Source: Kaistella sp. 97-N-M2
GTDB taxonomy: Bacteria > Bacteroidota > Bacteroidia > Flavobacteriales > Weeksellaceae
Direction of reading: 5' to 3'
Assembly (NCBI RefSeq): GCF_021513235.1
Contig: NZ_CP090976.1
Span: 434,001-498,000 of the forward strand
Length of the DNA: 64,000 bases
In this document: one piece after another, positions 13,181 to 19,447 of the stretch
Layout: every line of letters begins with the position of its first letter
Position numbering within the stretch: the stretch's first letter is position 1
The notes under the pieces: model-generated
What the model saw: only the letters and a program-made list of their open reading frames with translations
Told to the model about the DNA's origin: nothing
Databases searched by the model: none
Translations under genes and position numbers: made by a program

Positions 13181-13261
13181 TCGAATATATCATTGAAAAT
13201 CAAAACATTAAATTTCGAGAAGGAGTGATAAAAAAGAAGTGCAGGGAATGATTGAGTTGCG

Positions 13262-13269
13262 TATATTTG
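13262..13269 (+). promoter_or_regulatory. Promoter-like -7 element at the head of the island
   Basis: TATATTTG just before GTTAGCC (13273-13279) and the first island gene. It faces into the array and could drive its transcription. Confidence 0.45.
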
Positions 13270-13295
13270 AGAGTTAGCCAACATTAAAAAAACAC

Positions 13296-14557
13296 ATGAT
13301 TGAATTAATTTTAAAGTATTTTAATAAATTAACTTTTAGTGCACTAATTGAATTTTTTCAATTTATTATTCCAGTAATCTTAACAATTTGGGCTGTTTTT
13401 TACATTCGTCGATCTTCCTTTTATTACATAGAAAGAAGTAATATTAAGCTTTATGATGATGTGATAAAAAAATTCAAGGAATTTCCATCAAATATAAAGA
13501 AACAGACATTAATGAAAATCTAATTTTATTCAATGGAACAATAATCTTTAAGAGTCATAATGATATTAAAGCAGATGAAATTGACAAAGAATTAACAATA
13601 TTCTCTAAAGACACCAATGCAATTTGGAAACATTTTGAAATTACAAAAACAAGCACCGATTTTACACCTAAATTTAATATTGTAGGAAATAAAGTATTAA
13701 TTGAAAAAAGTTTATTAAAATCGAATGATTTTGTTTCTTTCGCTGGGTTATTAGATTCAAAAAACAATAAATTAACCGTTGGACATAGAATATATAATAT
13801 TATTCCAAGCAGTATTAACTTTAAAGAAAATGACTTAAGTCTATATAGAATTGGTGCAAGTTTTTTGACTTTTTTAATAATTTTTCTTTTTTCATTTACA
13901 TTGTATTCTAATTATAAATCTGATAAGGAAAAAATTGCAAATACAACTTTACAATATGTTGCTAAATCTGAAAAAAAAATTACAGAAAAGGATTCAATAC
14001 TATTTCGAAGTTTCGATTTTAAAACTGATTTCTACTTAGATAACAATAAAATAAATATTGATACTTTATCAAAGCAGTATAAAAAAAAGTGGGATAATAA
14101 AAAAAATTTGGTAGAGAAAACAAATCAAAAACAACTTGATAGTTTAAAAGAGAAATTTAAGAAAAACCGCACTGATAAAAATGAAATTGTCATGCTTAGA
14201 AAGTTTATTGATAATTTTAGTGTATCATTTTCAAATATTGTAAGTCCTTACGAAGAAATTAAACAGTTATCAGAGAAGAAATTATTAGAATTAATTAGTG
14301 ATAATAAAGTTAAATATAATATAAAATACAAAATAAATGATTCAATAAATGTAAAATATACTGATACAACCATAAAAACTCCGGAACGTAAAACTAATTC
14401 CGAAATTAAATTAAAAGAAATAGATTATTTTGCAATTATATTTTCTACACTTGAATATTTGTTTAGTTTATCGATCATTGTTTTAATGATTGTATTGTGG
14501 TATAAATATTTTAGACTTTTAAGATTAAAGAAAATGTATAATAAAAACGTCGGCTAA
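13296..14557 (+). pseudogene. Frameshifted membrane protein, island gene 1
   Basis: Two frames join into one 420-residue protein if one base is restored near the A run at 13500-13502. Frame one gives 75 residues with a hydrophobic helix (FFQFIIPVILTIWAVFYI). The second frame continues from about 13502 (TDINENLILFNGTIIF...) to the stop at 14557 and contains two more membrane helices (FLTFLIIFLFSFTLYS and FSLSIIVLMIVLWYKYF) around a Lys-rich loop. No family recognised. The DNA is much richer in A+T than the flanks, which suggests transfer. The stop codon overlaps the start of an attC-like hairpin. Real decay or a one-base assembly error are both possible. Confidence 0.65.
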
Positions 14558-14608
14558 TAACTAAGCTTTCGTTTTGTCTGCAAGACAAGAAATGAAAGCC
14601 TGTTGAAC
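14555..14608 (+). repeat. attC-like hairpin, site A
   Basis: A 54-bp structure bounded by TAATAAC and GTTGAAC. The arms AAGCTTTCGTTTTGTCT and AGACAAGAAATGAAAGCCT pair over most of their length, with two unpaired bases in one strand. GTTGAAC fits the integron core GTTRRRY. There is no T run, so it is not a plain terminator. It begins in the stop codon of island gene 1, and its right core is also the left end of the IS element. Confidence 0.45.
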
Positions 14609-14630
14609 GGAATCTCCGGTGGCTTTTCCT
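14602..14630. repeat. Left inverted repeat of the IS element
   Basis: Starts GTTGAAC, contains CTCCGGTGGC and ends CTTTTCCT. It matches the reverse complement of 16921-16949 at 25 of 29 positions. Confidence 0.75.
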
Positions 14631-14679
14631 CCCCAGTTGGCAACCTTATGGAGTTATCATTTTTAGAATTTAGGATAGT

Positions 14680-14707
14680 AAAGCAGTTTTTTAGAAGGAC
14701 TGCTTTT
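14680..14707. terminator. Hairpin inside the IS end
   Basis: AAAGCAGT / ACTGCTTT stem with T runs, between the transposase stop and the left end. It could be a terminator or the subterminal hairpin found in IS91-like ter ends. Confidence 0.55.
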
Positions 14708-14789
14708 TTGTGGAACTGAGGTGACGTTTTTCGAAGCACTCACCGGCTTTTTTTTACTTTTAAGATACAAAATCCCTTACCCACAAAAT

Positions 14790-15896
14790 TTATTTTGCAG
14801 ACGAGGCATTAAAAACGGCAAGAAAATCCTGAGGTGGGCCACGCTGTCCGAAAAGCGCTATGGTTATTAAGTTTCCTTCCTTGCAACACCGACATTTTTT
14901 AAGCAAAGTTTTCGGTTTTACTTCTGTAATTTGGATTTTTAAATCTGATTGTAAATCCTGAAGTTTTCCACGTTTCCAGGAGCTGCTTAAAATCCCGTAA
15001 TGCCGTATTCTCACAAACCTTCGAGGCAAAATATGAAGACTAAATCTGCGCACAAATTCAGTATTCGATAAAGTCATTTCCTTTTTCTGACCTTCTTTGC
15101 GATAATCTTTGTACCCAAAACGAACTTCTTTATCCGTAACTTCTTTGATGCGGTGATTGCTGATGGCAACTTTGTGAGTATATCTTCCTAAATATTCGAT
15201 CACTTGTTTCGGACCACCAAAAGGTCTTTTCGCATAAACCACCCAGTTTTTGGTGAAGAGTTTGTCCATTAAATCCTGGTCTTTAATTCCGGAAGCTCTT
15301 AATAAAGCCACGAACTTTGCCCGAAAAACTTTGCTCATCGCTTTTACACAGAAGAGATATTTATCGGTTCTTACTTTCTTTTTCCATTTGCCATTGTGGT
15401 CAATTCCACCACCCGGAACAATGCAGTGCAAATGCGGATGAAGACTTAAATTCTGTCCCCAAGTATGCAAAATCGCAATCATTCCCAACTGGATCTGTTC
15501 TGTTTTACCAAACTGATTTAATGTTGCCCACGCTGCTTCAAATAAGGTTTTATACAACAATGCCGGTTGAGAGATCGCCAAACCATTGAGTTCTTCGGGC
15601 AAAGTAAAAACCAAGTGATAATAACTGCACGGCAATAATTCCTGCTCGCGTTTCTGGATCCATTCTTCTCTTTTATGACCTTGACATTGCGGACAATGCC
15701 GATTACGACACGAGTTGTAACTAATCGAAAGATTTCCACAACCATCACACGCATCGATATGCCCACCCAAAGCAGCAGTCCGGCAATACGACAAAGCGCG
15801 AAGTGTTTTTTCTTGATGAACCGTAAAGTTTTGCGCCGACAAATTGATTTTGCGAAGAACATCAGCTACACTTCCGCCTTTACTTCGGGTTTCCAT
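14790..15896 (-). CDS. IS91-family transposase (HUH, Y2)
   Basis: A 368-residue rolling-circle transposase. An N-terminal zinc module (C50, C53, C63, C68, C71; CRNRHCPQC) is followed by the HUH motif HPHLHC (residues 153-158) and a YxxxY pair, YLGRY, at residues 235-239, which would be the nicking tyrosines. A Cys motif CRCC lies near the C-terminus. The ATG at 15896 (METRSKGG) overlaps the recombinase gene by 17 bp, so translation is probably coupled. The frame extends 64 residues further upstream, but that part is the recombinase in another frame. Appears intact. Confidence 0.93.
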   Translation of the reverse strand: METRSKGGSVADVLRKINLSAQNFTVHQEKTLRALSYCRTAALGGHIDACDGCGNLSISYNSCRNRHCPQCQGHKREEWIQKREQELLPCSYYHLVFTLPEELNGLAISQPALLYKTLFEAAWATLNQFGKTEQIQLGMIAILHTWGQNLSLHPHLHCIVPGGGIDHNGKWKKKVRTDKYLFCVKAMSKVFRAKFVALLRASGIKDQDLMDKLFTKNWVVYAKRPFGGPKQVIEYLGRYTHKVAISNHRIKEVTDKEVRFGYKDYRKEGQKKEMTLSNTEFVRRFSLHILPRRFVRIRHYGILSSSWKRGKLQDLQSDLKIQITEVKPKTLLKKCRCCKEGNLITIALFGQRGPPQDFLAVFNASSAK

Positions 15897-16821
15897 TTTT
15901 ACTGCATAAAGCGAAAACGGTATCCAAAGGGCTGTGCGGTTTTTGATCCGATAACTGACAGACATGAAGATATTCCATGGTCGATTCAATTCTTTCATGT
16001 CCCAGAAGTTTCTGAACCATAATGATCGAAACTCCATCTTCCAACAGATGCGTGGCAAAGCTGTGTCGCAAAGTGTGCGTATGAACAACTTTGGTGATTC
16101 CGGCTTTTTTACTCACCGTTTTGATGACCCATTGAACGCCTCTTTGACTGTATCTGGAATCAAAATCTTTGGTGTGCGTTGTGGAAGTATCAATCTCTTC
16201 AATATTTCTATTTTGATTTCCATTGAATAAATATTGAGTCGGATTTTCCACTGAAATAAAGATTTTCAGTCCCCGAATTAAATGCTCGGATAATGGAACA
16301 TAACGGTCTTTTTGACCTTTACCCTGAACAACATGCAGCATTTGGCGGTCAAAATCAAGGTGATGAAGTTCAATATTTCTTACTTCCATACATCGAAGTC
16401 CGCACCCGTAAATCAAACCGATGAGCAGTTTGTGTTTCAGCAATTGCGCCGTTTGAAGCATCCGCCAAACTTCCTGACGGCTTAAAATAGTGGGCAGTTT
16501 TTTGACTTTTGGAATGGCGGGAAGGTGTAGAAAACTATAGGGTAAACCTTCGGCTTTCAGAAGAAACCGCAGTCCATAAACCGTGTGTTTAAAGTAAGTT
16601 TGGGAAGGTGTTTTGCTGCGTTGTTGAAGTTCGAAGAGATAATCTTTGATGTCTTCCGGATCCAATTCGGTAGGGATTTTACCGAAGTAAAGCGCTACGG
16701 CGGCAACATGCCTGGAGTAATTATCAAAGGTTCTGGGACTTTTTCCCTGGATTGAAATATTTCTTTCAAAACGTTGTATCAGTTCCGAAAAACCATTAAC
16801 TTCGCTTGAAGCACGATTCAA
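15880..16821 (-). CDS. Tyrosine recombinase carried by the IS element
   Basis: A 313-residue phage-integrase family protein. The catalytic residues are in place: R143 (GCGLRCMEVRN), K169 (QGKGQKDR), H249/R252 (HTHTLRHSFATHL), H275 (LLGHERIEST) and the nucleophile Y284 (EYLHV). An N-terminal SAM-like core-binding domain spans about residues 10-95. The C-terminus has an SPLD motif that also occurs at the end of class 1 IntI as I remember it, but the extra IntI-specific helix is not evident, so I do not call it an integron integrase. It precedes and overlaps the transposase gene. Confidence 0.92.
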   Translation of the reverse strand: MNRASSEVNGFSELIQRFERNISIQGKSPRTFDNYSRHVAAVALYFGKIPTELDPEDIKDYLFELQQRSKTPSQTYFKHTVYGLRFLLKAEGLPYSFLHLPAIPKVKKLPTILSRQEVWRMLQTAQLLKHKLLIGLIYGCGLRCMEVRNIELHHLDFDRQMLHVVQGKGQKDRYVPLSEHLIRGLKIFISVENPTQYLFNGNQNRNIEEIDTSTTHTKDFDSRYSQRGVQWVIKTVSKKAGITKVVHTHTLRHSFATHLLEDGVSIIMVQKLLGHERIESTMEYLHVCQLSDQKPHSPLDTVFALCSKNGNPK

Positions 16822-16920
16822 AATTTTGTTCGTTCTTAAATCCTCCGGAGATTTTTTTTTGTAGCCATTTTAGAGATTTTATTTTTGGTTGAATAAAAAC
16901 AAAGTTAATAAAACAGCCTC

Positions 16921-16949
16921 AGGAAAAGCTACCGGAGGTTTAGTTCAAC
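16921..16949. repeat. Right inverted repeat of the IS element
   Basis: Starts AGGAAAAGCTACCGGAGG and ends GTTCAAC, which is also the left core of attC-like site B. Confidence 0.75.
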
Positions 16950-17072
16950 ACGGTATTTCTACAAGCGGGTATGAAGTTTTCATCGAAGATTTTAGCGATT
17001 AATTAAGTTTTTAGCAAGTAGAAAGATTTCGTATTTTTAGCCCGCCTGCAGAAATACCCAACCGTTATCTGC
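16943..17072 (+). repeat. attC-like site B
   Basis: The left arm GGTATTTCTACAAGCGGG (16952-16969) and right arm CCCGCCTGCAGAAATACC (17041-17058) pair at 16 of 18 positions, with the mismatches in the middle. The outer boxes are GTTCAAC (fits RYYYAAC) on the left and CCGTTATCTGC on the right. The ~70-bp interior is variable A+T-rich DNA. This R-spacer-L layout around a variable loop is that of integron attC sites. The gene it would have ended is replaced by the IS element. Confidence 0.5.
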
Positions 17073-17133
17073 TATTCCCCTACTCGAAAACGAAGTTGTT
17101 TTTAGCCGCTAACGAGGAATTTTTACTATTTTG

Positions 17134-17180
17134 GATAATCAAATAGTCAAAAAATGAAAACATATAACTATTTGATTATC
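17134..17180. repeat. 14-bp perfect inverted repeat
   Basis: GATAATCAAATAGT (17134-17147) and its exact complement ACTATTTGATTATC (17167-17180) are separated by 19 nt, immediately upstream of the start region of the next gene. It could be an operator or an RNA hairpin. Confidence 0.7.
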
Positions 17181-17229
17181 AATGATGAAATTTAACGTTA
17201 GTCAGAATATTAAAAAATCACGCCTAAAA

Positions 17230-17811
17230 ATGAAAGGAAAGACTCTGACAATAAAAAAAATCATATTAGTAACTCTAATTTTATCGTTTTCATTTTGCTT
17301 TTCGCAAATTGAAGAAATCAAAAAAATTGATAGTGTTTACGACGTAAAAACTGCACAAATTCCTGTAAAAAATAAAACTTCACAAAAATATTGGAAAGTT
17401 GCGACGGAAATTAATACGCAAAGAATTTCAGAGTATGATAAAATATTGAAAGATGCTTATGAAAATGATTCAAAAGAATTTCCTGAATTTAAATCACAAG
17501 AAGAAGATAAAATAATTGAGTATAAAAATGGAGGAATTGGCAGATTTAGAAACGACATGTCTAATAACATCGACTTATTTGAGCATCCTTTTCTTCCAAA
17601 TTTAGTTGGAATGACATTAAAATCTGAACTTAAATTTGTTATTGACGAAAACGGTAAAATCAAAAATGTCGAAGCAGTTGGTGAAAATGATGCTTTCAAC
17701 ACATTATGCAAAATCGCACTTTATAAAACTGAAGGAAATTGGATTCCGGCACAAAAAGATGGAAAAAATATTAAATCAAGTTTTAAATTTCCTATTGTAA
17801 CCCAAATATAA
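17230..17811 (+). CDS. Secreted TonB-C-like protein, island gene 2
   Basis: A 193-residue protein. From ATG 17230 it has a classical signal peptide (MKGKTLTIKKIILVTLILSF, cut near FCFSQ). An upstream ATG at 17182 is possible but adds 16 residues ahead of the signal. The C-terminal ~80 residues resemble the TonB C-terminal fold: FVIDENGKIKNVEAVG, then W-x-P-A-x-x-x-G-K and a final F-x-x-P strand. It lacks a proline-rich linker or TM anchor, so it is not a working energy transducer. Periplasmic or surface role unknown. A+T-rich, followed by attC-like site C. Confidence 0.7.
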   Translation: MKGKTLTIKKIILVTLILSFSFCFSQIEEIKKIDSVYDVKTAQIPVKNKTSQKYWKVATEINTQRISEYDKILKDAYENDSKEFPEFKSQEEDKIIEYKNGGIGRFRNDMSNNIDLFEHPFLPNLVGMTLKSELKFVIDENGKIKNVEAVGENDAFNTLCKIALYKTEGNWIPAQKDGKNIKSSFKFPIVTQI

Positions 17812-17828
17812 TAAGAAGAAATACAGCA

Positions 17829-17957
17829 GATAACAGGTTTTGGCAATAGTGCGGGAATTTCGCAAGTTTAACCATTCTAGATATTCCGAAATGTAGTTAT
17901 AATAGGAAAAAGTCGGTATTTTTAACCGAACCTTCGCCAATACCCAACCGTTATGCG
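17829..17957 (+). repeat. attC-like site C
   Basis: Starts GATAACAGG after island gene 2 and ends CCAATACCCAACCGTTATGC just before island gene 3. The arms pair only partly (TTGGC / GCCAA, GCGGG / CCGAACC). The right box CAACCGTTATGC resembles that of site B (CAACCGTTATCTGC). Weaker than sites B and D on its own. Confidence 0.4.
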
Positions 17958-17959
17958 TA

Positions 17960-18750
17960 ATGTTAAACCGACAGAAAACACGAATGATACTAACGACTAA
18001 ACAACCACAAGACTGGAAAGATTTACAGAAAAAGGTATCAGAGATTTTGCAACAGTGTGGTTTCAAAGTAGAAAAAGAGTTGACAACTGAGACAGTTAGA
18101 GGCAAAGTCGAATTAGATGTTTACGCAGAAGAAAATATTAAAGGAAGAAAATATTCTATTGTCTGTGAATGCAAGTACTGGAAATCAAATATTCCACAAA
18201 CCGTAATTCACGGTTTTAGGACAGTTGTTAATGATTTGGGATGCAATGTAGGTTATGTTATTACTACCAGTGATTTTCAATCTGGCTCAGTTACTGCTAC
18301 CGAAAATACAAATGTCGAACTCCTGACGTGGGAGAATTTTCAAGCACTTTTTTTTGAGAGTTGGTACGAATCATATTTTTCACCACAAATTGCCAAACGA
18401 CTTGACCCAATTCTTACTTACAGCGAGCCAATTTTGCCAAAATGGTTTGATAAAATGAATGAAGTTGACAAGGATGCATATTTTAATTTAAAGGATAAAT
18501 ACGATTTGTTCGGTTGGATAGTTATGAGTTTTACACCATACGCACGAATGTTGACTAAAGACACAATTCCACCACTTCCTCTTCTTGACAGAGTTAAGGA
18601 AAACAAAGAAGTGATAGAGAGAATTCCAATTGAAATTTTAGAAGAAACTGGTATAATGAGTTTTTAGAAAAATGTTGCGAATTTGGTGACTTTGCAATTT
18701 CTGAATTTAGACAATACGGAGATAAGTATAATCAAACAAGTGATGAATAA
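17960..18750 (+). pseudogene. Mrr-like restriction endonuclease, frameshifted C-terminus
   Basis: The intact frame gives 235 residues (17960-18667). The N-terminal half matches the Mrr/restriction-endonuclease-like fold: helix DWKDLQKKVSEILQQCGF, then VELDVYAEE and YSIVCECKYW, the PD-(D/E)xK-type D...ExK catalytic core. Such proteins cut DNA, often modified DNA. The frame stops at a TAG created in a T5 run near 18660; adding one T continues as LEKCCEFGDFAISEFRQYGD to a stop at 18750, making 263 residues. The nuclease core is unaffected. The start could be ATG 17960 or 17984. Between attC-like sites C and D. Confidence 0.7.
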
Positions 18751-18756
18751 AAACAC

Positions 18757-18893
18757 TACGCATAACGAGGTATTTCTATTCGCGGGGGTTGAAGTTTACA
18801 TCATAAAGATTTTTGCTAATTGTTCATTTTGTGATATTTATCAAGATCAGTTATAATAATCCCCGCCTGCGGAAATACCTAGCCCTTAGCGGT
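18757..18893 (+). repeat. attC-like site D
   Basis: Left box GCATAACGAG; arm GGTATTTCTATTCGCGGGG (18769-18787) pairs with CCCCGCCTGCGGAAATACC (18861-18879) at 14 of 19 positions, and all five mismatches form one central unpaired block. Right box AGCCCTTAGCGG. The right arm nearly repeats that of site B although the adjoining genes are unrelated. Confidence 0.5.
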
Positions 18894-18966
18894 AATTGCG
18901 AAATGACCCCTTTAAAAACGCAAGTATGATAGTGAATTTGGAAATTACTAAATAAAAGTTATACCA

Positions 18967-19447
18967 ATGGGAACTACAGGAAAACTAAAACGACGAAAAA
19001 AACATTCGTTCTCTCTATAAAAAATTATTAGAGAGTTGGAATAATAATCTTTCAAGTGATTTTGCTAACCTTTTTTTAGAGGATGGAAATGCAGTTGGAT
19101 TTGACGGCAGCCAGATGATGGGCAGGCAACAAATTAATAATGCGCTTAATCAAATTTTCGCTAATCATAAAGTCGCTTCGTATGTTGGTATTATAAGAGA
19201 AATCCGGTCTCTTGCTCCCAATATTTTTATTCTGCGGGCGGTTGCAGGAATGGTTCCTCCTGGCAAAAAGGAGATTATTCCCGAAAGAAATGCCATTCAA
19301 ACATTAATTGTCACTAAGGAATTAGAGGAATATTGCATTGCGCTTTATCAAAACACACCTGCCACTTTTGATGGAAGACCAGAACTACGCAAACAACTGA
19401 CAGAAGAGCTTCAGGAACTTTTTAACAGCGGAAATACAATAAAATAA
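18967..19447 (+). pseudogene. SnoaL-like (SgcJ/EcaC) protein, frameshifted near start
   Basis: The SnoaL-like/NTF2-fold body NDEKNIRSLYKKLLESWNN...FANLFLEDGNAVGFDGSQMMGR runs to the stop at 19447 but has no start codon in frame. ATG 18967 (MGTTGKL) joins it exactly if one A is removed from the A4 run at 18987-18990, giving 159 residues. This family contains small ligand-binding or isomerase-like proteins of unknown function in most genomes. A truncated translation from 19115 would lose the first helix. Last gene of the island, directly after site D. Confidence 0.7.

Follow-up and report, generated by a model that had tools for sequence, protein, structure and literature searches.

Which recombinase, if any, serves an array of gene cassettes that has no integrase beside it? 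The question is raised by a 64,000-nucleotide stretch of the genome of Kaistella sp. 97-N-M2 (GCF_021513235.1, contig NZ_CP090976.1, positions 434,001 to 498,000 of the forward strand; hereafter the window), in which a first-pass annotation had described, at 13273-18893, an integron-like array of four plus-strand genes spaced by structured repeats, named sites A to D. Our analysis indicates that this array is very probably a satellite (CALIN, a cluster of attC sites lacking an adjoining integrase) of a widespread Bacteroidota integron system that uses IntX, a tyrosine recombinase of a lineage other than IntI. Integrons of this kind appear not to have been described before, no published account of the system having been found in the literature searched, beyond whose scope lay most subscription papers and all preprints.

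Cassettes and attC sites of the window

A covariance model trained solely on attC sites of other genomes (model R1) gave exactly three matches in the window, all on the plus strand. These were sites B (16942-17073, 55.9 bits), C (17825-17959, 61.0 bits, also found by a chain detector) and D (18757-18894, 52.3 bits), and the structured repeats proposed at these places are thus real. The arms said to be common to B and D (GGTATTTCT..GCGGG on the left and CCCGCCTGC(A/G)GAAATACC on the right) are present, with different genes between them, and Rfam matched none of the window sites. Neither IntX nor IntI is encoded within the array, where the sole recombinase gene belongs to an IS91-type element (see below). 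Taking a CALIN as at least two attC sites less than 4 kb apart with no adjoining integrase, the three sites within 16942-18894 form one and, judged by the IntX type of its attC sites, it is a CALIN of the IntX system.

Two cassettes carry the argument here, both on the plus strand. Cassette 2 (17064-17949) consists of an R' box (GTTATCTGCT, 17064-17073), a gene encoding 209 aa (17182-17811) whose product had no Pfam family match, an R'' box (AGCAGATAAC, 17825-17834) and attC C. Cassette 3 (17950-18884) is built from an R' box (GTTATGCGTA, 17950-17959), a gene (17960-18667) whose product contains a restriction endonuclease domain of the Mrr type (PF04471, E 2e-12), an R'' box (TACGCATAAC, 18757-18766) and attC D; the Mrr-type protein was also the single, weak match in the PADLOC output. 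Each of the two starts with G|TT plus 7 nt, which are reverse-complemented again at its own end, and the two boxes pair across the gene at 10 of 10 positions. A cassette that was once a circle closed at G|TT leaves exactly such a pairing across the gene. Of the outer boxes that had been likened to the attC core, GTTGAAC/GTTCAAC near 14604 and 16943 are the ends of the IS91-type element.

IntX loci and their arrays in Bacteroidota

By way of a related site 1.9 Mb from the window, found by pattern search, a parent array was located at 2.348-2.368 Mb. There, on the minus strand, the gene of the 347-aa tyrosine recombinase IntX is followed after about 100 bp by an attI-like junction (ACATATAAACAAG|TT) and then by a long cassette array with nine model-found attC sites, in which a gene-less cassette occurs four times and the IS91-type element three times. 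A recombinase remnant lies within the parent array as well, followed by a second attI-like sequence and a cassette start. The covariance model found 17 sites genome-wide: nine in the parent array, three in the window, three in a cluster of the same attC type at 2.574 Mb (2573908-2575355) and two single ones (1133735 and 1938157). The search for IntI elsewhere in the genome, which the first-pass annotation had recommended, found no canonical IntI above the curated cut-off. Its suggestion of an attC cluster lacking IntI holds in part, the window array having no adjoining integrase and being CALIN-like. Its other suggestion, a cassette system with recombination rules of its own, also holds in part, in that the system has its own integrase lineage, which is present 1.9 Mb away and in many relatives too.

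Orthologues of IntX, 65-86% identical, precede cassette arrays both within the genus and in further families. By scanning named genomes we obtained 80 IntX loci, 75 of them with sufficient sequence and 45 with at least 2 kb downstream, distributed over Flavobacterium, Kaistella, Pedobacter, Pelobium, Chitinophaga-type genomes, Saprospiraceae and other Bacteroidota, and homologues down to 49% identity have the same locus layout. Linked cassettes were found at 32 of the 45 long loci and at 2 of 44 upstream controls. Two Chryseobacterium carry IntX integrons on plasmids (NZ_CP041688.1, L156; NZ_CP094530.1, L157), and no close IntX was found in a viral contigs database.

The order at these loci is IntX gene, promoter-like motif, attI and cassettes, all in the same direction. 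The attI motif, TATAnnn(n)GTT, lies 80-118 nt past the IntX stop codon in 72 of 75 loci (versus 1.8% of control windows) and is joined to the first cassette. Upstream of TATATACAA|GTT, a stretch of ~65 bp is variable between species and internally symmetric, with an inverted-repeat score of 13.4 within a locus, 6.4 when shuffled and 8.1 between loci, and a further partial copy of it adjoins the attI core; this looks like a set of integrase binding sites that would have co-evolved with IntX. About 14 nt past the IntX stop, TAnnTT(T/A)G, which matches the consensus of the Bacteroidetes -7 type, occurs in 57 of 75 loci where 4.2 were expected, and would serve as the promoter of the cassettes (Pc).

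Recombinases of the same genus with ~45% identity to IntX (L069-L072) were considered as integrases of the system and ruled out: they are like IntX in domain build and length, but none of them is followed by the attI motif or an array. In two of these genomes one attC of the IntX type lies ~1 kb upstream of the recombinase, pointing away (L069 97-235, L072 14176-14312). A plasmid of Acinetobacter indicus encodes a recombinase (L159 5001-5795) with 49% identity to IntX next to tet(X3), a gene whose family is regarded as being of Bacteroidota origin.

As judged from their footprint in the sequences, gene cassettes appear to move between species. One cassette of 1,434-1,437 bp, whose gene is mercury-transport-like by eye, is 93-94% identical among Kaistella, Flavobacterium denitrificans and Pelobium, i.e., in three families. 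The homology spans G|TT to G|TT, and the cassette lies at attI in Flavobacterium and within arrays elsewhere, with different neighbours. Another gene is 99.8% identical between two species, in one of which the R'' box is split at TAA^C, apparently by a group II intron. The first-pass annotation had named a lack of homologous repeats with swapped genes in relatives as a finding that would speak against it; since such sites exist, along with one whole shared cassette, this objection falls away. The gene-less cassette of the parent array (~174 bp, GTTGGGAAAAATCGCCC...CCGAGCTGGGC, with copies near 2350590, 2357450, 2358600 and 2365700) also takes the first position, next to attI, at each of the two IntX loci in Chryseobacterium sp. 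SNU WT5 (L053, L054), and may be a promoter or spacer cassette. A further cassette of the parent array (L005 16646-17734) encodes a beta-lactamase-family serine hydrolase (PF00144, E 3.6e-59), for which resistance is not claimed.

Across 60 loci we collected 207 non-overlapping cassettes, 129 of which run straight into the next one, with junctions at G|TT, mostly one gene each and a single direction. The attC sites are ~121 bp long (peak at 120-122), and the R'/R'' match in 229 candidate cassettes was 10 nt in 125 and 9 nt in 67. From the outside inwards, a site is made of the R box, an asymmetric 1-nt/5-nt loop, a stem of ~10 bp, small internal mismatches that include a conserved A opposite C, a 6-bp stem and a loop of ~75 nt, the arms being complementary and free in sequence. 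When no structure was supplied, pairing of the arms emerged in one register only (left i with right i+2), with mutual information reaching ~1 bit and as many as four types of pair. With the structure written out for 25 diverse sites, 91.6% of the cells pair, compared with 62% in shuffled and 32-40% in slid alignments, and all 18 inner pairs show changes on both sides. The model is strand-biased as well (122.8 versus 24.7 bits at one site); since one strand scores far higher, the IntX-type site is polar, like attC.

Covariation of this kind, a location after a gene on its coding strand and the ability to fold, all of which every site shows, would also be expected of repeats that act within transcripts, for instance as terminators or as hairpins of regulatory RNA following each gene, with ordinary recombination accounting for the differences between genes. 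A hairpin cannot explain, however, that the outer box pairs with the start of its own cassette across a whole gene. The recurrence of the gene-less cassette, the cassette common to several families with its edges at G|TT, the fixed distance of the attI motif from the recombinase and the absence of Rfam family matches likewise speak against this explanation, to which we assign hardly any probability.

IntX and canonical integrons

IntX is intact and has the catalytic R, K, H, R, H and Y conserved. It scored 203.8 bits against the NCBI integron integrase model TIGR02249 (cut-off 265), the middle of which (180-239) is unmatched, and the distance from the first catalytic arginine to HxxR is 89-90 residues, compared with 131 in IntI and 92-96 in Xer-like proteins. 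The IntI-specific additional domain (I2) is absent from IntX. IntX and IntI each form a clade of their own (100/99 each) in a maximum-likelihood tree, the deeper order of which is unsure (long branches). The structure model (pLDDT 82.6) has its best fold matches in XerA and IntI4, and IntX reaches the score of the Xer-type model NF040815 (220 of 220), being like XerA/Xer-type proteins (PDB 4a8e, 5hxy) in fold and in the spacing of the catalytic boxes. It differs from these in its extra N-terminal domain and in preceding a cassette array, and the XerC/XerD-like housekeeping genes are separate (L007, L013). Some IntX proteins carry the NCBI name 'site-specific tyrosine recombinase/integron integrase', which is a generic model name. 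The N terminus has ~60 extra residues predicted to form strand-strand-helix-strand-strand-helix. Foldseek ranked 4o66 (SMARCAL1 HARP) first for this domain, weakly (E 1.3), and VIA-align gave XPB chains at Z 3.2-3.9 and 4o66 at Z 2.0, which is weak as well; there was no Pfam HARP match, and by sequence no convincing relative of solved structure was found.

How closely does the system resemble a canonical integron? Its likeness to sedentary chromosomal integrons and their CALINs includes the integrase gene beside attI, the tandem, single-gene, unidirectional cassettes, the G|TT junctions with R'/R'' boxes and the folded attC with its asymmetric loop and variable terminal part, as well as integrase-less arrays, cassettes common to several species and plasmid-borne copies. 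The differences are that IntX lies outside the IntI clade and is without the IntI additional domain, that attI is 3' of IntX and everything reads in one direction, whereas in four canonical loci of the phylum the array is 5' of intI, that the R boxes are mostly 10 bp and the attC length is nearly fixed at 120-122, and that the sites are barely visible to a canonical attC model. This model was built from 14 sites of IntI loci of the same phylum, the IntI2 plasmid regions (L158, L230) being too cassette-poor. It found its own kind well, but reached E<1 at just 8 of ~150 IntX sites and detected none of the three window sites. The rare cross matches land on true IntX sites, so the canonical and IntX attC designs are related or convergent. 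As far as sequence can tell, the system thus resembles an integron in its working, and it is on the integrase that membership of the canonical family fails.

These comparisons also bear on whether the cassettes could be ordinary ones, moved by a canonical IntI, past or present, next to which IntX would be an unrelated neighbour. Other classes of the phylum often have a canonical IntI (84 of 296 sampled genomes), some genomes have both integrases, and the weak matches of the canonical model do coincide exactly with a few IntX sites. Against this, the Kaistella genome has no IntI above the cut-off and only one is listed in its class among the sampled genomes, IntX lies ~100 bp ahead of the first cassette in dozens of genomes, and the canonical model misses nearly all IntX sites, those of the window included; we consider such a mover very unlikely. 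Both integrases occur together in genomes G350, G060, G065, G075, G155, G214, G320 and G340. Such genomes are a natural setting for asking whether cassettes are common to the two.

The anatomy of the system, the linkage of IntX to arrays, the structure of attC and the footprint of mobility can be read from the loci themselves. As to the working of the system, we infer that IntX is the enzyme, that it uses a folded single strand and that it serves the window array in trans. IntX would recognise the folded single strand of attC through its structure, cut at G|TT and join the circles of excised cassettes either to attI or to a different attC. Its activity would lead to the capture, loss and shuffling of genes, including those in arrays that have no adjoining integrase, and transcription of the first cassettes would start from the promoter-like motif that closely follows the IntX stop codon. 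All this IntX would do without the IntI-specific additional domain, and its ~60-residue N-terminal domain is a candidate structure-specific DNA binder. More tentatively, and with somewhat less than even confidence, we propose that IntX may be a second, independently evolved integron integrase, which would act on folded single-stranded attC without the I2 helix, perhaps by means of a HARP-like N-terminal domain.

Several points weigh against the assignment of the arrays to IntX or against parts of it. The support comes entirely from sequence, from which recombination is deduced, and 13 of the 45 long loci had no linked cassette by the strict detector. The site collection partly required complementary arms and an R-box match of at least 8 nt, which inflates both the pairing and the match-length figures; no constraint was put on attC length, on pairing register or on the R-box match usually ending at 10 nt. 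The -7 type promoter match is one to a consensus only. For the N-terminal domain, the HARP-like reading is weak (Foldseek E 1.3), and some IntX homologues (L190, L192) seemingly start behind this domain, which may therefore not be essential.

IntI is defined by its additional domain (PMC9668308). This domain has been described as required for the capture of cassettes and as occurring in no other protein, while direct proof that I2 caused single-strand recombination is stated to be lacking (PMC7790495). With a natural cassette system that has no I2, the causal role of this domain would become directly testable and, if the I2-less reading of IntX is true, I2 is not the sole road to single-strand cassette recombination. 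In the IntegronFinder 2.0 survey, a complete integron was named in Bacteroidetes proper only in Salinibacter (PMC9024848). Surveys by IntI and canonical attC models would miss the integrons of Flavobacterium, Chryseobacterium/Kaistella, Pedobacter and many other Bacteroidota, in which the IntX platform is present on plasmids and its cassettes cross families.

The IS91-type element and the edges of the array

Why is the first cassette of the window without an attC of its own? An IS91-type element (14558-16949, minus strand, with ends good to ~3 bp) interrupts the R'' box of attC B, the point of insertion being TAA^C. On the same strand it has two genes, one for a tyrosine recombinase (15880-16821), the other for an HUH transposase (14790-16088; NF033538 IS91 at 424.5 bits, cut-off 125; PF04986 Y2_Tnp; PF14319), and the HUH Y2 transposase with a zinc-binding domain is the feature by which the IS91 family is recognised. 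What had been listed as a separate site A is the left end of this element, which splits attC B; of the latter, the remainder after the insertion (16950-17064) is followed by the R' box of the next cassette, GTTATCTGCT.

Three further copies of the element, 99.6-99.8% identical, are present in the genome. All four adjoin attC, with the same attC type on the right of three of them; to the right of the fourth, and of copies in other species, the attC arms differ from these. The left flanks of the four genomic copies and of relatives in other species end in xxTAA (xCAA in one L064 copy), and the rest of attC lies on the right wherever the right end is seen (window, L004, L005, L053, L057, L063, L064, L156, L157), which together point to insertion at TAA^C of the R'' box. 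The element thus appears to target attC and seems to represent an IS91-attC group. Other mobile elements that insert at a fixed position of attC are the IS1111-attC elements and the group IIC-attC introns; the window element is like them in its fixed place of insertion and differs in being of the IS91 (HUH Y2) family. The occurrence of group II introns with integrons has been described (PMC7923331).

That the element transports its own attC is argued against by this change of attC at the fourth copy and in other species. The same observation bears on a broader role for these elements as the carriers of the cassettes, with one-ended rolling-circle transposition taking along flanking genes and an attC-like end. 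The association of all four genomic copies with attC, three with one attC type on the right, would agree with such a role, but many arrays in relatives are built without such an element nearby, and the preceding cassettes retain their own R'' box up to TAA. The differing arms and the R'' boxes kept to TAA fit insertion into a pre-existing attC, and we regard the carrier explanation as extremely improbable.

Cassette 1 (13274-14557, plus strand) consists of one gene (13296-14557), frameshifted near 13,510 and with no Pfam match, and of an R'' box (GTCGGCTAA, 14549-14557) severed from its own attC by the element; its start, GTTAGCC, is matched by GGCTAA at 14552-14557. This start follows the G|TT junction at 13273|13274, the left edge of the array (13255-13274, plus strand), where the flank GTATATTTGAGAG has by eye a loose attI likeness only and may be a secondary integration site. 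At the other edge, the right junction of attC D (18885) reads C|TTAGCGG rather than G|TTAGCGG, and the sequence that follows (18885-19447, plus strand, start TTAGCGGTAAT) is probably the remnant of a fourth cassette, with a degenerate SgcJ/EcaC-like gene (19115-19447, TIGR02246 41.9 bits) and no model-detected attC downstream. Sites B, C and D each lie behind a plus-strand gene, and the genes of the IS91-type element intervene on the minus strand. At the position of the array in 15 relatives, this attC type is missing from nearly all, and in two of them the distance from ssb to the next conserved gene is 259-400 bp.

The array stretches of the two Chryseobacterium plasmids contain insertions of IS110, IS91 and group II introns, and that of NZ_CP094530.1 holds a multi-gene ATPase-methyltransferase-helicase block.

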